Of a stretch of 64,000 nt of DNA, positions 42,026 through 53,303 are shown piece after piece (the stretch's first letter is position 1; each line of letters starts with the position of its first letter). The position numbers and the translations under genes were made by a program. Source of the DNA: a bacterium (GTDB taxonomy: Bacteria > JAMCPX01). Location: contig JAJYUJ010000001.1 of NCBI GenBank assembly GCA_021792615.1, positions 90,526 to 154,525 of the forward strand, in the 5' to 3' direction. The notes under the pieces were generated by a model. That model searched no databases and was not told where the DNA came from. It saw only the letters and a list, made by a program, of their open reading frames with translations.

Positions 42026-42487
42026 TTATTTCATCTTTGGATCTATATACTCAACATTAAGAAATATCTTGTTAAGATGATCAAAGTCATGATCGGTCGT
42101 CAACAATGTTGCAAGACTTACCGCGGCAGTTGCAGCAATCCATATATCATTTTTACCCATGTTTTTTGCGCTCATACCTTCCGGTCGTTTTTTATGAGGA
42201 TGATAACCCTGGCTGTATGCATCAATCTCTGCATACTTATTGAGAATGTCCTGATGGTTGATATTCATGTAAGGTATTCTACGAATTAGCTCATTCAGCT
42301 TTTCTTTCTTATCATTGCCCCATTTTAATCTGAAAGAAAGCGCATAGAGCTCACCAATGGATACAACCGATATCAGTGAAATATTGGGAGGCTCGGATAT
42401 TTTAAACTCTTTCTCGATAAATTCAGAATAGACGGCACCGCGCATATAGCCCAGAAGAATACCGGTATCTAAAACATATTTAGACAT
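42026..42487 (-). CDS. PIN-domain protein (VapC-like)
   Basis: Acidic residues in 'VLDTGILLGYM', 'SIGELYALS', 'NDIWIAATA', 'TTDHDFDHL'. Confidence 0.85.
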   Translation of the reverse strand: MSKYVLDTGILLGYMRGAVYSEFIEKEFKISEPPNISLISVVSIGELYALSFRLKWGNDKKEKLNELIRRIPYMNINHQDILNKYAEIDAYSQGYHPHKKRPEGMSAKNMGKNDIWIAATAAVSLATLLTTDHDFDHLNKIFLNVEYIDPKMK

Positions 42488-43449
42488 CAGTTTTCTTTAG
42501 ATATTTCATTCAGTGCTGCAAGGAGCTGATCGATGGATTCTTCTCCAGGCCATTGGCCCCATACTTCTTTTAACGGGCTCTTTATCCCAAACTTAGCCTT
42601 TGCTTCCTCTACTTCCAATAAAGGTGATTGTGATTCTGAAATGTCCTGAAATATCTTTTCCCCGGCTTCAAATTGTTTTAGTAACTGAGCCTCGAGAAAC
42701 CGTATTTTGCCGGAAGGATTAAAATAAGCGATTCCTTTAATCGTGACATCCTTGCCCCATAGTGTCCTCATATACTCAGTATCTATTGAGGATGGGTCGG
42801 CGGATCCAGGTATATTGGCACCATTCTCCAGAGTAAGTTTAAATCTCCGGGTAGCGTGCTCTATCACGTTAAATAAACCCGTTAATACAACAGCACGCGG
42901 TTTCGGAGTCTTTGCCTTGATCTGGCTTATTTTTCCTAGTTCATCTCTGTTGATTTTGAAATGTTCTTTCGGTCTCTCCTGTGAGTCTACCTCAAATTCA
43001 CTCACATATTCTTTTAAAACTGAATCGAAAGAAAGTAAGGCCTTTAGTACTCCTGAATCGTAGTATTCACTCTCAAGATGTTCGGAGGTCACTTCTGATA
43101 CGGATTTTGAGAGTAAAGAGACTGCTGTATCTTTCGGCTCAGGGAATGTATACCAAAGGTTCTGCTGCCGAATTTGTTCAGGCGCAGCCTCCTCAAGAGT
43201 CGGGGCCTCAATTTCCAAAATTGTTGAGCCTTTTTTGATACCCGTAACCGTAAATTCAAGGGATTTTCTCAGCCATTCCGGCAATGCCCCTCGTTTCACA
43301 CTCGCCCCTTCAACCGACAAGCGTAACGCCTTTTCTGCGCCATCTAACAAATTAAGGGACAACTCTTTGAGTGCCAGCAAAGGAATCGTTCCCTCTGGTG
43401 TCTTAAGACCTTGTATTCTAATTTTGTATTGAACGCCTTTCACTTCCAT
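42487..43449 (-). CDS. Hypothetical protein coupled to the PIN gene (overlapping ends)
   Basis: 320-aa ORF ending at the start of the PIN gene; no family recognised by eye. Confidence 0.7.
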   Translation of the reverse strand: MEVKGVQYKIRIQGLKTPEGTIPLLALKELSLNLLDGAEKALRLSVEGASVKRGALPEWLRKSLEFTVTGIKKGSTILEIEAPTLEEAAPEQIRQQNLWYTFPEPKDTAVSLLSKSVSEVTSEHLESEYYDSGVLKALLSFDSVLKEYVSEFEVDSQERPKEHFKINRDELGKISQIKAKTPKPRAVVLTGLFNVIEHATRRFKLTLENGANIPGSADPSSIDTEYMRTLWGKDVTIKGIAYFNPSGKIRFLEAQLLKQFEAGEKIFQDISESQSPLLEVEEAKAKFGIKSPLKEVWGQWPGEESIDQLLAALNEISKEN

Positions 43450-43656: not shown

Positions 43657-45104
43657 TCATCTGGTTTTTCCCTGTCTTGATTCTTTCTTACTATCTTTTG
43701 ATTTTTTACTCAATTTGATTCGCTCTAAAAGCACACTCGCAGGCTCGTCGTTTGGATCCTGCGGCACAAGCTTCCCCTCGAACGCCCTCTTCAAAATACT
43801 CTGCCGCAGCCTCTGGGCTTGTTGTAAACAAGCCCCTACAGTCTTCTCCACCTCATCCGCTACGGAAAACCTCCGTTCGATTTCCGAAACAATTTGTTGC
43901 TGCTCGGAGAGAGGAGGAAGGGGAAGCTTGATTTCCCTTAAAATATTTGCTGGAATCTGAGGTTGCGCTGTTCCGGATTGTTTTACTTTCAACTGAGAAG
44001 TAAAAGAAGGGGAAACAATGAATTTAATTAAAAATTTATTATTTAACAAATCGTTAGAAACTCTCAGAATTAACATCCCAGAATTAATCCGAATCCTTTT
44101 ATAAGGAATAAATTCATCATATAATGCTACATTGCCCAACGTTCCTCTGGTTGTTATGACAACATCATTGATTTGGAGTTTTCCACTCCTTAATGTTGTA
44201 TCCTTATTTTTTGTAATAAATTGATTGTCATCAAAAACAAAATTTCCATTTCTCACATTCTTGGTAGACAGAAACAAGCAATAACCATCTTGTAAGAATT
44301 CGTGTTTTTTCGGATAATTCCTGCCTCTATCTCCATCTATTGTTTTAAAAGTTCTTTCAGTTTTCTATAATGCCACCCCTCCGGCAATTCAGGCAAATCA
44401 ACAAATTCCTTCTTACCCTCCTTTGATAAAGGAGCTAGGCTCCCATCGCCGCGCAGTATTGCAATGGGAATCGGAGGATTTTTTCTTCTCCATTCTTCCG
44501 TCAACTTCCCTTCAAACGCATACTTCAAAACCGCCTGTCGATAACGCTTCAACTCGGCTCTTACCTTTTTCAGCGCCTCTATCCCTGCATCAAGCTGGCT
44601 GAAAAGCTCTTCAATCTTCGCCACAATCCGCTGCTGCTCGGCGAGAGGAGGAAGGGGATATGGTAATTCTGATAATTGTTTCTTTGTTACACCCCCTATA
44701 GTAGTACCACGGTGTTCATATCTGAATATCTGAACTGCTTGCGAAAGATAATATAAGGAATAGTCAGGAAACAACATGTCGTTTCCAACGAGAGCCTGTG
44801 AATCCTGACTGAAACACATTGATGTTTTCGTCAAGGCAACTTTTCCTAATCCTACTCGAGTAACAACAATAATACTTCCGGCAGGAACAAGATTTGTTGC
44901 TGAGTTCTCAACGGCTGCGTTTGTAATCTGTTTTCTTGATTTAATATCTTTTAGTCCATAAATATCTGCACTGGTAATCCACGGGATACGACCGGCCCAA
45001 TATTTGGTAATGTTTGTCGATGGTGTACCTCCGCCCACTATATTGTAAAGTTGTCCGACTCGTGCCCTCACCCAGTTTTTTGGAAGTTTATCTTGATCCA
45101 TCAA
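43657..45104 (-). CDS. hsdS: Type I R-M specificity subunit HsdS, split by a frameshift near 44343-44349
   Basis: 45104-44337: TRD1 plus 'PPLAEQQRIVAKIEELFSQLDAGIEALKK...RQAVLKYAFEGKLTEEW'. The -1 frame continues 'IDGDRGRNYPKKHEFLQDGYCLFLSTKN...' to 43657 with 'PPLSEQQQIVSEIERRFSVADEVEKT...RQSILKRAFEGKLV'. Confidence 0.85.
43815..43839. repeat. Palindrome GGGCTTGTT-GTA-AACAAGCCC(CTAC) inside hsdS
   Basis: Perfect 9-bp stem; encodes 'VGACLQQAQ'. Confidence 0.75.
44418..44434. repeat. Palindrome CTCCTTT-GAT-AAAGGAG inside hsdS
   Basis: Perfect 7-bp stem; encodes part of 'SLAPLSKEGKKEF'. Confidence 0.6.
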
Positions 45105-45143
45105 TTATCCCTATTTTACAGTTATTAATTTGAACAGACGTGA

Positions 45144-46994
45144 TTAAGTTTTTATGTTAAGCAATTCCAGTAATTCTTCGTCGATTTTTTCTTCTTTTTC
45201 AAAATGCAAATCAAATCTTTCATTTATCGGATATTTAGCTTCTTCAAAAATAATACTATAATTGATACATAATAAATTTATATCTTGTCGTAAGATAAAT
45301 TGTATTAACTCTACATCACGAAATGTATGCTGAAGAATTTTACCAAAATATACTGTAATAATTTTCTTATCGTCTTCATAGGATATCTTATATTTTTTTT
45401 CTGGATTATTATTCTCACCAAGGTTTTCCGATATAGATCTCAAATAAGACAGTTCAGGCCTGTGAATATTTAATCTATGTAGGAATGGTGAAGTTGGTGG
45501 CTCTGGCTCTATAGGTTCCTCGATGATCAACTCTTCCATATTTTCAACAAAGTCTATACCTTCAGGTAGTGTTATTTTTATAATTACTTCATTAGCTGTT
45601 CCATTGCCCTCATTATATACTCGAATGAGAAGAGAAAAACGAGAACAGATTAATGGAATATTCTCTTCAATATTAATTTTGTAATATTTAATCTCTTGGT
45701 TGTATATATCGACTTCTTTATTATATCTATCATAGTCTTTTGTTTCTATTACTAGCTTAGCTGGGAACATATTAGAACGAGCATCATGTTGATATTCGAG
45801 TGGAGTTTTGTTGTCCATTTTATGATGAATTATTGAATTAACGATTTTATCGTTTGGTATTGAAATTATAACATCTTTTGCATGATGTTTTTCTGCAATT
45901 ATAAATGCAGAACAATTAGGAAGGGGCTTGCCAAAAAGTCCACTTAATATGCTCTTTGAGAGATGATTTATATATGGGTCAACATTAAGAATAGAATTTT
46001 TGTATTTTTCCCATTCATTCCTTTCTGGAAACAATGGGAACCAACCTCGTCCGTTATAAATACCGTATTTCCAAAAAATCGGAAGCAATGATTTGGGAAT
46101 GTTATGGGAAAAAAGGGTTAATTTCCCTAAATTACCATATCCGCATAGGCGCTCCCTTAATTTATCATCACCCCACTCGCCCTTTTTATCAGTATACAAA
46201 TCATATGATATTTTACAGACTAAATCTTTTGCTTCTTTAGCTTCGTCTTCATTCGACCATAACTTTGTGCCATATTCTAAGTAATTATTGTAATCTTTAT
46301 GACCAGAAATAATTTCAAATTGTTTTAAATGATATTCTTCCTTTAACTTATTAGCAAGATTAGTAGACGGCGATAGCTCAATTGCGACACAATAATATAT
46401 TGGTAACTCTCTTAAAATTGCTTGTTCATTTTCTAACAGAGGGTACTTAACATGTTCTCTATGCTGAATAGTAGAACCAAACAATTCAGAAATAAATTTA
46501 TTTAGCTGATTTCCAGATGTAATATTATCGTCTACAAACACTATCCCTTTATATGCGCCAGTGCTTAAGCTAGATATAAATTGGTCGATGGTGCATATTT
46601 TATGATTAAGTTCTTCTTCAGTTATATTAAGTTTTTTACCAATTGAATATATGAGCATAGAGGCACTATCATATAAGGTTCCAACTGGGCAGATACACAG
46701 ATCACTATCTGCAATTGTTTTATAAGAATTAACGATTAGCGTAACAAGTTTATTTGTATCAAAATAATTAACATTATTAAGTAGTTTAAATGCAATTTTA
46801 ACATTGTTTAAACTGCCGAACTGTAACAACCAGTTAATAATGTTTTCTTCGTTGATAATACCTGTATAATAACTTTTAAATATACCGCTTAATTCAAAGA
46901 TATCAGAAATTTTTTCTGTAACGAATTGTCCAATATCATCAAGGATTATTTTTTCACTAATGGTATTGTTTAATTCGGTACTGTCGATCGTCAT
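45144..46994 (-). CDS. Phosphoribosyltransferase-like protein with C-terminal Ig-like/CARDB-like region
   Basis: PRPP-loop-like 'KGIVFVDDNITSGNQLNKF' (compare ComF 'KVLLIDDVITTGATV'); upstream 'CICPVGTLYDSASMLIYSIGKK'; C-term 'LLIRVYNEGNGTANEVIIKITLPEGIDFV'. Confidence 0.6.
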   Translation of the reverse strand: MTIDSTELNNTISEKIILDDIGQFVTEKISDIFELSGIFKSYYTGIINEENIINWLLQFGSLNNVKIAFKLLNNVNYFDTNKLVTLIVNSYKTIADSDLCICPVGTLYDSASMLIYSIGKKLNITEEELNHKICTIDQFISSLSTGAYKGIVFVDDNITSGNQLNKFISELFGSTIQHREHVKYPLLENEQAILRELPIYYCVAIELSPSTNLANKLKEEYHLKQFEIISGHKDYNNYLEYGTKLWSNEDEAKEAKDLVCKISYDLYTDKKGEWGDDKLRERLCGYGNLGKLTLFSHNIPKSLLPIFWKYGIYNGRGWFPLFPERNEWEKYKNSILNVDPYINHLSKSILSGLFGKPLPNCSAFIIAEKHHAKDVIISIPNDKIVNSIIHHKMDNKTPLEYQHDARSNMFPAKLVIETKDYDRYNKEVDIYNQEIKYYKINIEENIPLICSRFSLLIRVYNEGNGTANEVIIKITLPEGIDFVENMEELIIEEPIEPEPPTSPFLHRLNIHRPELSYLRSISENLGENNNPEKKYKISYEDDKKIITVYFGKILQHTFRDVELIQFILRQDINLLCINYSIIFEEAKYPINERFDLHFEKEEKIDEELLELLNIKT

Positions 46995-47004
46995 TACTTT
47001 ACCT

Positions 47005-47784
47005 TTATTTATTTACTTTCTTAAGAAGGTCATCAATGTATTTTGCAGAAGTAAAAAAGCCTATTCCCATTTGAGATGTTTCCCCTAATTCTTTCACATG
47101 TTCCATTATTTTATTGTAAAGATCTGCTGTAAGGCGTACAGGGTCTTGGCCACAATATGAAATACTTGCTCCACAAGCAGGCGAAATAATTATAGGTTTA
47201 TCTTCAAACTTCTCACTAACTTTTTGTATTATTAATCCGATAACCTTACCCGAATCACAATCAAATACCGGCCCCCCACTATCACCATGATTCACAAACG
47301 CACTTATTACAAATATCTGATTTTCACCGGGAAAAGTTCCTGCAAGGATACCTTTGTTAAGGATGGTAGAAAACAATGTAATTTGTTTGTTTATTTTTAA
47401 AGTATAAATACCTACAAAACCTATATCTTCACCTAATCTCTTTTTAAATTTAGTTTCTAATTCTACAGAAGGAAAATTTGACCCATTGATTTTTAATAAA
47501 GCGACATCTGCCTGCTTGTTTTCATTTATTAAAGTTGCCTTAATCTTACCGTTTACTGTGTACTCAGTTGCTCCTTCTAATACATGAGCTGCTGTTGCTA
47601 TATAACCATCTTTCGAAACAAAAAAGCCTGTACCAAACTCGCCTTTATTTGTTAATATTGCCACAGTAGATGGCATAACTTTTGATACTGATTCTGTAAA
47701 TTTTGAATTAGAAGTATCTGCCGCCAGCCTTTGTTGCACTGATATTAAGAATATAGCCACGAACAAAATAATATTTAATTTCAT
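47005..47784 (-). CDS. Trypsin-like serine protease with N-terminal signal peptide
   Basis: Signal-like 'MKLNIILFVAIFLISVQQRLAA'; triad context 'IATAAHVLEG', 'ADVALLKI', 'VNHGDSGGPVFD'. Confidence 0.85.
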   Translation of the reverse strand: MKLNIILFVAIFLISVQQRLAADTSNSKFTESVSKVMPSTVAILTNKGEFGTGFFVSKDGYIATAAHVLEGATEYTVNGKIKATLINENKQADVALLKINGSNFPSVELETKFKKRLGEDIGFVGIYTLKINKQITLFSTILNKGILAGTFPGENQIFVISAFVNHGDSGGPVFDCDSGKVIGLIIQKVSEKFEDKPIIISPACGASISYCGQDPVRLTADLYNKIMEHVKELGETSQMGIGFFTSAKYIDDLLKKVNK

Positions 47785-47832
47785 TTATTTATATCCTCCT
47801 AAAATTCGTTTATTTTAAATGATGCTGTAACA

Positions 47833-49701
47833 TTATATGCGATTTGTTAAGTTAGTCTGTAGTATTTTTTTTGTCTCTTCAATCCTTCCCCTTATATGGA
47901 ATGGATAAGCACTAAGTTTTAATTTTATCAGACCAGTTAATAATTTGTTAATAATTTCCGTATCTTTACTTTCCCTAATCAATAAAAGTTTATAAGATTC
48001 ATCCACAAACATTGATGGCGAAATTCGTAATAGATTTTCTATTTCATACAGTTGGGTTCTCTTATCATGCAAGATGTCATTAAGAAACTTGGCAAAAAAA
48101 GTAATACGGCTATCTGTATCAAATATTGCTTGCTTAATTGCTGTATCCCTTTTTTCTGAATCTGAATTAAGAAAGCAAAGTAACATAGCTTTTTTTACTC
48201 GATGATTTAATTCTTCGTTGAATAAATCCCAGAGTTTCTTCATATTTGCACTTGATAGGCTAAAATATGATAAGGCAATTAAGCTATTTGTTCTGATGGA
48301 CCAATGTAGATTTTCATCAACAGCATATTTATATAAAACTTCTTCTAAAGAATGAGGAGGATTGTTTTTATATTTATAAATTTCTATAAGGCGAGCAATT
48401 TGATATTCAGGGAACTCTTCTTTATTCTTGATAAAAACGAGAACTTGTTCTGGAATTCTGTTTCCTTCCTTAAAAACTTTAAAGTATCTTACAATTTTAT
48501 CAGTGAGAGCCGGAATATCTACTACCACACTAAAGCATCTATTGACAGCAATATTACTTTTCAGCAAAATTAATCCTGTAAGAATCCTTTTAAATAATCT
48601 TATATCTTTTGACTTTAACTTATAACCTATTTTTTTAAGATGTTCTTTAAATCCTTTTTCATATTCATTATGTTCTTTCTTTGTTAAGTTTTTCTTTTGA
48701 ATCCTCTTCTGGAGTTGTTCAACAAGTGGTGAAATTCCCTCAAATCTTTTATCTTGAATGTACGAATCTAATTCCGGAGAGTCGCAGATCTCTGTTTTTG
48801 ATGTTTGCATGTTTAAATGTAACTGTCTCAATACCCTATTGAAAATGAACAAAGCTTTTCTTGCGTCATTTTTATTCTTGGCAAGTATTTTCACATCATC
48901 TACATACCTCAGGTATCTTATGTCACTTAATTGTTCTAATTTCTTAAACTCTTCGTCCAATGGTATAAGATATATGTTACCAAGATAACTGCTAACATCA
49001 TTACCTTGCGGTATACCTCTGTCAATACGGTTTCCATGGGGTGGCAATACAGTCCATTGACCTATAATTTCTATTAAAAGATTGATGGGATAAGGATCTT
49101 CACTACCTGAACAACGCATTAGAGTAGCCCGAAGAACATCGTGATTAATATTTTCAAAATAACTTGTAATATCTGTAGTAGCCAAAAATTTGTAGCCTTT
49201 ATTAAAGATGTAGTCTTTTGTTTTATCATCAAATGCTGGCCATGCTTCATACCATTCTTCAAATTCTTTAATCTTTTTTCTTTGTTCAATTGGTAAAAGT
49301 GGGATGTCCCTATCTTCGAAAAGCCGATCTGCCTTCCGATTTCCTTTCGGAATTACTCTCCAAGAATAAACATTATCGGGCAGATGTTGATCAATTTTAT
49401 CTACTAACACATTAATGATTGCGTACAATACAACAAAATCTTCAAAATCTAATATTGTACCAGGTCTTGTCGCAAGATGGGATTTTGGCACTTCAATTTC
49501 CAGTGCAACTTTTGGCTTATACTGTCTTTTTAATAACTTATTACCAAGTTCTTTTAGTAATTTCTCGCTACTGTGAGTATAATCTTGGTGTCTGAAAAAA
49601 TCTGGTATAAAAAAACGCTTCGCACCATCTTTTGCATAATTAAATGCAAGCTTAAGATTATCTAATGTTGCTATTTGTTTAAGCAAGTCACTTTCGCTCA
49701 T
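47833..49701 (-). CDS. Reverse transcriptase with long alpha-helical C-terminal region (UG/Abi-type candidate)
   Basis: 'FLATTDITSYFENINHDVLRATL', 'DRGIPQGNDVSSYLGNIYLIPLDEEF', 'RYLRYVDDVKILAKN'; about 300-aa helical HEAT-like C-terminus. Confidence 0.88.
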   Translation of the reverse strand: MSESDLLKQIATLDNLKLAFNYAKDGAKRFFIPDFFRHQDYTHSSEKLLKELGNKLLKRQYKPKVALEIEVPKSHLATRPGTILDFEDFVVLYAIINVLVDKIDQHLPDNVYSWRVIPKGNRKADRLFEDRDIPLLPIEQRKKIKEFEEWYEAWPAFDDKTKDYIFNKGYKFLATTDITSYFENINHDVLRATLMRCSGSEDPYPINLLIEIIGQWTVLPPHGNRIDRGIPQGNDVSSYLGNIYLIPLDEEFKKLEQLSDIRYLRYVDDVKILAKNKNDARKALFIFNRVLRQLHLNMQTSKTEICDSPELDSYIQDKRFEGISPLVEQLQKRIQKKNLTKKEHNEYEKGFKEHLKKIGYKLKSKDIRLFKRILTGLILLKSNIAVNRCFSVVVDIPALTDKIVRYFKVFKEGNRIPEQVLVFIKNKEEFPEYQIARLIEIYKYKNNPPHSLEEVLYKYAVDENLHWSIRTNSLIALSYFSLSSANMKKLWDLFNEELNHRVKKAMLLCFLNSDSEKRDTAIKQAIFDTDSRITFFAKFLNDILHDKRTQLYEIENLLRISPSMFVDESYKLLLIRESKDTEIINKLLTGLIKLKLSAYPFHIRGRIEETKKILQTNLTNRI

Positions 49702-49741
49702 ACTTGTCTATAACCATTCTTCAAATATTTAATTCATTTAT

Positions 49742-49794
49742 ATATTTCATGCCACCAGTACCTCGTTTAATTCTCTGATGATCTTGTTCGCATC
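49742..49794. repeat. Direct repeat copy A: remnant of an hsdR 3' end
   Basis: 53 bp, 4 mismatches to 50515-50567; minus strand encodes DANKIIRELNEVLVA*. Confidence 0.85.
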
Positions 49795-49823
49795 GTAGGG
49801 GCGGGTTTGAAACCCGCCCCTTC
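49795..49823. repeat. Palindrome GTAGGGGCGGGTTTGAAACCCGCCCC
   Basis: 11-bp perfect stem; similar element inside hsdR at 51355-51381. Confidence 0.8.
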
Positions 49824-49850
49824 ATATTATGAATCCTTTTGCCCAACACA

Positions 49851-50207
49851 TTACTCTTCACTTTCATGGATATAATCTTGTCTGAGTTTTTCAAATAATG
49901 GTTGTGCAGTCGGGATATCTTCTTTGACGGTTTTCCACACAACCTTTAGGTTTATGCCGAAATATTCATGAACTACTTTATCTCTCATACCGGCAATATC
50001 CCGCCAGGGTATCTTGGGATACTTTTTTCTGACCGAAGGCGGAATATTCTTTGTGGCTTCGCCGATTATTTCTATCGCCCTTACCGTAGCAAACTGTGTT
50101 TTATCTTCTTTCACAAACTCCTCATAAGATACATTCTGAAGAAACCCCTGTGCCTTGGTCATGGCGTCAAGGACGTCATTTATATAATCGAGAATTGCCC
50201 TTTTCAT
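49851..50207 (-). CDS. hepT: HepT-like (DUF86) HEPN toxin
   Basis: 'RDKVVHEYFG' (R-X4-6-H-X-Y), 'ATVRAIEIIGEATKNIP'. Confidence 0.9.
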   Translation of the reverse strand: MKRAILDYINDVLDAMTKAQGFLQNVSYEEFVKEDKTQFATVRAIEIIGEATKNIPPSVRKKYPKIPWRDIAGMRDKVVHEYFGINLKVVWKTVKEDIPTAQPLFEKLRQDYIHESEE

Positions 50208-50567: not shown

Positions 50568-53303
50568 TTTGCCGAAGACTTTGTAGAACTTCGAGGATCC
50601 GCCTTTTTCATAAAACGGCGCGTACTCGAAATCCTCGGTGCTTATGTTCAATGATGTTGCTATGTGGTCTTTTATGATCATGAGCCATTCCTTTTGTTCG
50701 GGTGTGAATTTCCTGCTGTCTTTTTCCTGCTCTGCCAGCCATGAGTCAAACCTATGTGCCACGGTCTCGGGAAAAGGCTCGAGCGTATCGCTTTTGCCAA
50801 TGGTAAAGCGTATAAGAGAAACGATATTTGATAAAAGTTTCTGTGGTCCCGCACCCTTTACCTTTGATCTTTCAAGCTGCTCATAAGCGTGCCAGACCTG
50901 CTCCGTAGTAAGGTAATACGGGGGTCTTTTGATGGAGTCGGCGAGCTGTTTGATTTCCTCGTAGGTGAGATGCCGGTTGCCGTAAGGCTTGCTGTAAATG
51001 ATCTGCAAGGCTGTGAGTTCGTCCTTATTCTCTTCTATAAATTTATTGAACGTATCTATAATGGTACGCGCATTCTCTTTTGCCTGAGCGTCGAAGCCTG
51101 CAAACGTAGCTTTGTCCTTGCTTACATTGTCAATAATTTGCTCGTTCCTTCTTTTTATATCAATGATGACGTTTCTCAACACGGGGTTATCAAACGGGCT
51201 GCATGCCTCTTTGACTAGCTCCTCACCTGCTTTTTTAATTTCATTATCTGTAGGGCTGTATTGCAAGGCGCCCCTGCCAAACATCAGTTTTGCTTTTTCT
51301 ACCGACTTGTCCGGATCGACAGCATCGAGCAGATTGTTGATGGCCTGTTTCAAAGTAGGAGCGGGTTTTAAATCCGCCCCTGCGATAGCCTGTTCGATCT
51401 CTTTCCGATCTTTGTCATTGAGCCCCCTCTCAACCCTTGCAAGCCTCCCCGCGAGAGACAACAGTGTATCTTCGTCCCTGTTGCCCATGGCAACGGACAA
51501 AAGGAGCTTATCGAACGGTATGTTCCTCTTCCGCTCCAGAGGTCTGGAATCGGTCTTGTCGTTCTCACACACGCCCACTGCGTCCACGATCACAAAATGG
51601 GTCTTGTTTTGTGCATCGGCCGTAACCCCTCTGAGATCATCGGATTCAATCGTTCTTGTGCCCCTGCCCTTCATCTGCTCGAAGTATACCCTTGACTTCA
51701 CATCCCTCATAAATATGAGGCATTCCAGCGGCTTTATATCGGTTCCCGTGGAGATCATATCAACGGTTACGGCTATGCGGGGATCATGAGAGTTGCGGAA
51801 AGAAGCTATTAGATTATCCGGTTTCTCACCTGTGGTTCTGTAGGTTATCTTCTTGCAGAAATCATTACCCTTGCCGAATTCCTCTCTTACTATATGCACT
51901 ATGTCCTCTGCATGAGAATCGTCCTTGGCAAAAATCAATGTCTTGGGGACCTCTTTCCTGTCCGGAAATATGTCGGTAAAAAGCTTTTCCTTGAATGTCC
52001 GGATGATTGTTCTGATCTGGTCCGGTGCGACAATACTCCTGTCGAGCTGGTTCGGCGCATACTCAAGCACCTCATCCAGCTGCTCCCATCGGAGCTTCCT
52101 TGTCAGTCTGTCGCGCTTATCCACATAATATCCGGCATCTATCTTACTGCCCTTATCGGTAATCTCGGTTTTTATTCTGTAAACGTCATAGGGGACATTG
52201 ACACCGTCCGCAACCGCGCGCTCGTGACTGTACTCCATGACAAGGTTCTGATTAAAAAATCCGATCGTCTGCTTCGATGGTGTTGCAGTAAGACCGACAA
52301 TAAACGCATCAAAGTATTCAAGTACCTGGCGCCAGAGATGATAAATAGAGCGATGGCACTCATCGGTAACTATAAAATCAAACGTTTCTATGGGTATTGC
52401 GGGGTTGTATGAAACCGGTAGCACGGGGCTGTCATTTTTTCCTCCGTTGAACAACGATTGCTCTTCAAGGGACTCGTCCAATTCAGGCTCGCCTTTGAGC
52501 ATGGAGTAAAGCCTTTGAATGGTAGTAATACAAACGCGGTTTACCGGGTCAAGGGTGTTCGAAGTGAGATGTTGAATATTATAAAGCTCTGTAAACTTTC
52601 TGCCGTCATCGGGCGTAGCATAGTTCAGGAATTCGTATTTTGTCTGACGTCCGAGGTTGCTCCTGTCAACGAGGAACAAAATCCTTTTTGCATTCGCATA
52701 TTTTATAAGACGATAAATAAAACTTATTGCGGTAAACGTTTTCCCGCCGCCGGACGCCATTTGTATCAGTGCCTTCGGCCTGGCCTGAGCAAATGATTGC
52801 TCAAGATTATGAATCGCCTCGATCTGGCAGTCCCTTAATCCGCTGGTAATAAGCTGAGGCATGTTTCTTAATTTTCCTCTTAATGTTTGTTCAGTGGATA
52901 TCCATTCCTTGAGTGTCTCTGGTTTATGAAAGGCAAATATCCCTCTTGAGCGCGTGTCCGGGTCTCTCAAATCCCTGAAATTGGTCTCTATTCCTGTGCT
53001 TTCATAAGCAAAGGGCAGCGGTTCCTGTATATGGGGAAGATTGTCCGGAATTGCATTTACATAGTTATCAGATTGCTCTGCAACACCGCTTAATGTAGTG
53101 CCTTCAGGCTTTGCCTCTATCACTCCGACAGCGGTCCTATCTACAAAGAGCATGTAATCGACAGTGCCCGATTTAACAGGGACTTCGCGTACAGCTATAC
53201 CCACGGAAGCACCGAGATTTAATTCCTGTAAATTCTGGATTTTCCAACCCGCTGCTTCAAGAAGCTGGTCAATTTTTAACCTTGCCCTTTCCTCGGGTTT
53301 CAT
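50520..53303 (-). CDS. hsdR: Type I R-M restriction (DEAD/DEAH helicase) subunit HsdR
   Basis: 'GTVDYMLFVDRTAVGVIEAKPEG', 'QMASGGGKTFTAISFIYRL', 'DFIVTDECHRSIYHLW', 'GLTATPSKQT'. Confidence 0.95.
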   Translation of the reverse strand: MKPEERARLKIDQLLEAAGWKIQNLQELNLGASVGIAVREVPVKSGTVDYMLFVDRTAVGVIEAKPEGTTLSGVAEQSDNYVNAIPDNLPHIQEPLPFAYESTGIETNFRDLRDPDTRSRGIFAFHKPETLKEWISTEQTLRGKLRNMPQLITSGLRDCQIEAIHNLEQSFAQARPKALIQMASGGGKTFTAISFIYRLIKYANAKRILFLVDRSNLGRQTKYEFLNYATPDDGRKFTELYNIQHLTSNTLDPVNRVCITTIQRLYSMLKGEPELDESLEEQSLFNGGKNDSPVLPVSYNPAIPIETFDFIVTDECHRSIYHLWRQVLEYFDAFIVGLTATPSKQTIGFFNQNLVMEYSHERAVADGVNVPYDVYRIKTEITDKGSKIDAGYYVDKRDRLTRKLRWEQLDEVLEYAPNQLDRSIVAPDQIRTIIRTFKEKLFTDIFPDRKEVPKTLIFAKDDSHAEDIVHIVREEFGKGNDFCKKITYRTTGEKPDNLIASFRNSHDPRIAVTVDMISTGTDIKPLECLIFMRDVKSRVYFEQMKGRGTRTIESDDLRGVTADAQNKTHFVIVDAVGVCENDKTDSRPLERKRNIPFDKLLLSVAMGNRDEDTLLSLAGRLARVERGLNDKDRKEIEQAIAGADLKPAPTLKQAINNLLDAVDPDKSVEKAKLMFGRGALQYSPTDNEIKKAGEELVKEACSPFDNPVLRNVIIDIKRRNEQIIDNVSKDKATFAGFDAQAKENARTIIDTFNKFIEENKDELTALQIIYSKPYGNRHLTYEEIKQLADSIKRPPYYLTTEQVWHAYEQLERSKVKGAGPQKLLSNIVSLIRFTIGKSDTLEPFPETVAHRFDSWLAEQEKDSRKFTPEQKEWLMIIKDHIATSLNISTEDFEYAPFYEKGGSSKFYKVFGKDANKIIKELNEVLVA
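51355..51381. repeat. Palindromic repeat GTAGGAGCGGGTTTTAAATCCGCCCCT inside hsdR
   Basis: Imperfect copy of 49795-49823; in frame, encodes 'AGADLKPAPTL'. Confidence 0.75.

Follow-up and report, generated by a model that had tools for sequence, protein, structure and literature searches.

A UG21-like reverse transcriptase, an HtrA-like protease and a PRTase-CE protein encoded in one AT-rich block of a type I restriction operon: a candidate anti-phage cassette

Results

Gene content and surroundings of the block

The window analysed here is a stretch of 64,000 nucleotides from the bacterial contig JAJYUJ010000001.1. On its minus strand, three consecutive genes occupy positions 49701-45144: a reverse transcriptase (RT) gene (47833..49701; 622 aa), a gene for an HtrA/trypsin-like serine protease (47005..47784; 259 aa) and a gene for a PRTase-CE protein (45144..46994; 616 aa). 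The gaps are 48 nt between the RT and protease genes and 10 nt between the protease and PRTase-CE genes, in agreement with the short-gapped, minus-strand run described in the original prediction. The block lies within a type I restriction-modification (RM) operon, with hepT 149 nt upstream and hsdS approximately 40 nt downstream. The flanking genes had also been named correctly (hsdS downstream; hepT, mntA and hsdR upstream), as seen from the ORF list and Pfam. Besides mntA, the operon contains a PIN-domain gene and a 320-aa gene of no recognised family.

Two observations concern the operon itself. At 43657-45104, hsdS is split between an ORF of 255 aa and another of 206 aa in a different frame; hence, either the specificity subunit is frameshifted, which is probable, or the assembly carries an indel in an A/T run. 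At 42026-43449, the 320-aa gene overlaps the PIN-domain gene by 1 nt, and the 320-aa protein gave a weak PADLOC match to PDC-M32A; the two genes may form a toxin-antitoxin pair or an accessory pair of the RM system.

The block had been described as AT-rich, and this was found to be real: GC content was 30-33% within the three genes, compared with 42-47% around them. When the GC3 values of window ORFs of at least 150 aa were compared, the trio gave the three lowest of 52 (0.224, 0.235 and 0.243), while the remaining 49 had a mean of 0.49 (sd 0.07) and a minimum of 0.346. That the three lowest values fall on adjacent genes indicates entry of the trio as a single foreign block. Composition thus supports joint acquisition, but is not on its own proof that the genes function together.

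The intergenic stretch of 149 nt upstream of the RT gene (49702..49850, minus strand) may be a promoter or ncRNA region. It folds with a z score of -1.95 and forms a strong hairpin; it had no Rfam match above the gathering score. It also contains a perfect, REP-like 23-bp palindrome, GGGGCGGGTTTGAAACCCGCCCC, at 49798..49820. Allowing up to 2 mismatches, this palindrome was found at 3 sites in the genome, the others being a degenerate copy at 51358-51380 in hsdR and a third on another contig (C8).

The reverse transcriptase

The RT matched Pfam RVT_1 (E 1.2e-15) and carries the expected YVDD at aa 266-269. In the alignment, the motif A aspartate (D177) was intact, together with Y266, D268 and D269. 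Its best PADLOC model was RT_UG21 (375 bits, E 1e-112), followed by UG19 (245 bits), and no retron RT model was present among its 25 best matches. A maximum-likelihood tree was built with representatives of UG9, UG19, UG20, UG34 and DRT8, plasmid RTs and one retron III-A RT. In this tree the window RT joined a single RT, L054, with support of 97/93 and an identity of 27%; L054 was also the only other RT found for which UG21 was the best PADLOC model (252 bits). Members of UG9, UG19, UG20, UG34 and DRT8 reach roughly 400-613 bits with the models of their own groups, values that neither the window RT nor L054 attains, so 'UG21-like' is the safer name. Judged by its sequence, the RT is of the defence type and closest to UG21, in line with the UG/Abi assignment of the original prediction. 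Placement in a group II intron clade, which had been named as evidence to the contrary, was not observed; a group II intron was rejected, there being no Rfam intron match and a TIGR04416 score of 107 bits against a cut-off of 300.

The AF2 model of the RT had an overall pLDDT of 71. The long helical C-terminus that had been proposed was seen in this model as an all-helical region over residues 308-621, where pLDDT was mostly about 50-80. Foldseek matches were of low TM and included DRT6, AbiP2, DRT9, DRT4, UG15, AbiA and AbiK, the values for AbiK, AbiA and UG15 being 0.3-0.4. Class 1 UG RTs carry HEAT-like repeats and, where studied, synthesize DNA without a nucleic-acid template (PMC13174585). 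The modelled helical half of the window RT resembles that of class 1 enzymes, a likeness that does not prove class membership. DNA synthesis that is untemplated and in many cases primed by protein is a further mark of this class.

The protease

The trypsin-like nature of the second protein was borne out by a match to Trypsin_2 (E 7.8e-21) and an intact triad of H67, D93 and S169 (GDSGG). The protein is HtrA-like and has no PDZ domain; its nearest solved relatives include HTRA1 and the periplasmic MucD, DegP and DegS. The best PADLOC match was RT-Protease_XI. The ATG is preceded by a strong Shine-Dalgarno sequence (AGGAGG) and followed by a hydrophobic, signal-peptide-like segment (aa 1-17), and the protease may therefore be exported or membrane-anchored. 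Such a start is awkward for the simplest model of its role, cleavage of a cytoplasmic partner.

The PRTase-CE protein and its contexts elsewhere

The 616-aa protein has a PRTase-CE domain (PF24390, E 4.6e-31) at aa 54-323, with the loop VFVDDNITSGN at aa 152-162, confirming the PRTase-like protein that had been proposed. PADLOC PRTase_III-A was its best match in that collection (80 bits). Weakly, the domain is closest to a plasmid protein (L074) and to an HD fusion (L101). When 23 other PRTase-CE proteins were compared, none had a clear homologue of the C-terminal extension (aa ~330-616, ~290 aa). It had been called Ig-like, and a sub-threshold match to DUF11/B_ant_repeat (E 0.03 and 9e-4), covering aa 451-485, is consistent with this; the AF2 model of the protein, at a pLDDT of 33, was left out of the analysis. 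The extension is possibly Ig-like.

PF24390 was surveyed in 287 domain-wide and 396 Bacteroidota genomes, and the neighbourhoods of 21 independent loci were read. An RT adjoined PRTase-CE in nine of them, and all nine were best matched by PADLOC retron III-A models, with RT scores of 329-538 bits on their own models. The gene order in these nine loci was PRTase-RT, compared with RT-protease-PRTase in the window. Coupling of an RT to PRTase-CE is therefore a known pattern, and a retron III-A with a PRTase effector has already been published (PMC12548924).

NADAR genes adjoined PRTase-CE in another frequent arrangement (7/21 loci: L096-L100, L065 and L066), four being called by Pfam and those of L097, L099 and L100 by sequence recognition. 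This recurrent pairing suggests linked nucleotide/ADP-ribose chemistry. Other sampled loci had AAA or HD fusions, or ORC/CDC6-like or ParB neighbours. PRTase-CE genes were found within type I RM operons at L065 and L067 (the RM genes of the latter being recognised by eye), and at L104 approximately 1.4 kb from hsdS. Neither a trypsin-like neighbour nor a UG RT neighbour was present at any of the 21 loci. Such varied partners point to a widely shared effector whose partners are exchangeable.

Search for other copies of the trio

The sole other copy of the trio was on a 5389-bp contig (L002) of a 'Bacteroidetes' MAG that is 100% identical to window positions 44513-49901. As the identity extends to the flanks in the RM operon, this copy offers no independent evidence; most simply, it is a fragment of the same population, possibly or probably mis-binned. 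The check for co-occurrence thus yielded one identical metagenome contig and no independent second copy.

UG21 RTs were sought in the window's own phylum, in Bacteroidota, in 287 and 381 domain-wide genomes and in the phyla of two carriers. The ten leading RTs, a set that did not include the 700-aa RT L110, were compared with PADLOC models, and UG21 was the best model for L054 alone. Its contig stops 109 nt past the RT, and hence any partner genes downstream cannot be seen. Viral contigs gave no close relatives when searched by RT, by the alignment of the two RTs or by PRTase. By tblastn, plasmids and phages yielded just distant RTs and Burkholderia PRTase proteins. Among plasmids, three UG-like RTs (L071, L072 and L073) each shared an 8-nt overlap with a gene whose annotation is DNA polymerase, a pair common to plasmids of Alpha- and Betaproteobacteria. 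An empty insertion site was looked for in the other genomes of the family, from which hsdR was absent. PADLOC 2.0 models matched the trio as separate families only. In the literature searched, the combination of RT, protease and PRTase-CE was not found; that literature did not include the lists of retron- and UG RT-associated genes reportedly given by Mestre 2020 and 2022.

Discussion

We consider the trio to be a laterally acquired anti-phage cassette in a type I restriction operon, in which the RT gates the PRTase-CE protein and the protease is accessory; we give this reading a probability of about one half. Counted in its favour were the GC3 values and short gaps, the UG21-like RT with its modelled helices and fold matches, the known pairing of RTs with PRTase-CE, the exchangeable partners of that domain and the setting among RM, hepT/mntA and PIN genes. 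Counted against it were the failure to find the trio in an independent genome, the absence of a trypsin gene from the other loci fetched, the exported look of the protease and the UG21 score of the RT, which is lower than other groups' members obtain with the models built for them. The UG/DRT-type RT would monitor infection via its own DNA synthesis, and would hold or release the PRTase-CE protein. The latter would then act on nucleotides or PRPP-linked metabolites, such that the infected cell is halted (abortive infection). The presumed chemistry of the effector (nucleotide, PRPP or base exchange) follows its fold family, and the gating step is modelled on retron III-A, whose RT is thought to control its PRTase. 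The protease is the uncertain step, and would most likely serve as an accessory activator or trigger. With its domain on the cytoplasmic side, it could cleave the C-terminal tail of the PRTase; if exported, as its N-terminus suggests, it could report envelope damage. Activation of a pro-effector by a protease has a precedent in Hachiman and AVAST (PMC12799240). A more elaborate arrangement, namely a three-component DRT type in which RT-made DNA gates the protease and the protease unlocks a nucleotide-acting PRTase-CE, appears doubtful to us.

The original prediction had taken the three genes as one system. The domains, the defence-type RT and the shared foreign block speak for this, while no independent second copy was found. 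The same prediction regarded the two partners of the RT as effectors; the PRTase-CE domain is real and is taken here as the putative effector, and such a role is weakened for the protease by its signal-peptide-like start.

A somewhat unlikely but substantial alternative is that independent defence genes were gathered in an island, comprising a stand-alone UG21-like DRT, an RM-linked PRTase-CE effector and a stray HtrA-like protease; the shared AT-richness would then stem from a donor that the genes have in common rather than from a joint function. PRTase-CE genes do occur in or near type I RM operons elsewhere (L065, L067 and L104), no relatives of the trio were found, and the protease looks exported, all as expected for unrelated genes. 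Gaps of just 10 and 48 nt argue against it, however, as do GC3 values that are near-identical within the trio and clearly unlike those of the RM genes, and the frequent coupling of PRTase-CE to RTs. The signal-peptide-like start could also be read differently: an exported or anchored HtrA-like enzyme might itself detect envelope damage by the phage, with the cytoplasmic RT and PRTase responding. The signal-peptide-like N-terminus, the strong Shine-Dalgarno sequence and the periplasmic solved relatives would fit such a sensor, but neither the RT nor the PRTase has a strong membrane segment to relay the signal inward. We know of no comparable system, and regard this arrangement as quite improbable.

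Least probable of all, and very unlikely in our estimate, is a divergent retron III-A or XI, in which an upstream msr-msd RNA would be present, the RT would make msDNA and the PRTase would be the effector. The PADLOC matches of the PRTase (PRTase_III-A) and the protease (RT-Protease_XI) point in this direction, and so does the 149-nt upstream stretch with its hairpin. That hairpin, however, is the repeated palindrome with a degenerate copy in hsdR, the stretch has no Rfam match, and the gene order differs from that of the nine retron loci. Retron identity was rejected on the RT itself: its best models are of the UG type (375 bits), none of its top 25 matches is a retron RT, and in the tree it stands apart from a genuine retron III-A enzyme. 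The motifs VTG and NAxxH were not retained as a test for retrons, since L068, itself a true retron III-A RT, lacks both by the same search patterns.

The window pairs a known effector, PRTase-CE, with a different kind of RT, and adds a protease. If the trio is a system, one effector domain would operate with defence RTs of two unrelated kinds, retron and UG/DRT, and gating of the effector by the DNA product of the RT would be testable through part swaps. PRTase-CE would thereby be known from two RT contexts, and a UG21-like locus would be seen to include a protease.

Comparison with known systems

The window RT is like UG21 (UG/Abi) in its best HMM, its modelled helical C-terminus, its defence-island setting and its clade with L054; it differs in a score of 375 bits, below what RTs from other groups obtain with the models built for them, and in having protease and PRTase-CE partners. 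With retron III-A, the window shares the combination of an RT and a PRTase-CE effector. The RT of the window, however, does not belong to the retron RTs, a search for an msr-msd found none, the gene order is reversed, a protease is added and the PRTase carries its ~290-aa C-terminal extension. Retron XI, an RT-protease fusion, likewise joins an RT to a trypsin-like protease, whereas in the window the protease has its own gene and begins like a signal peptide, the RT is non-retron and a PRTase is added. The nuclease-protease pairs of Hachiman, AVAST, Lamassu and DRT loci (PMC12799240) are similar in that a defence locus holds a trypsin-like protease beside a candidate effector. In the window, by contrast, the protease is not fused to a sensor and its candidate substrate would be a PRTase; an MBL nuclease-protease pair was rejected, as the Pfam scan detected no MBL domain in the trio or its neighbours. 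PRTase-CE proteins with NADAR, AAA, HD or ORC/CDC6-like partners have the same effector domain, sometimes also in RM operons, whereas its partners in the window are an RT and a protease.
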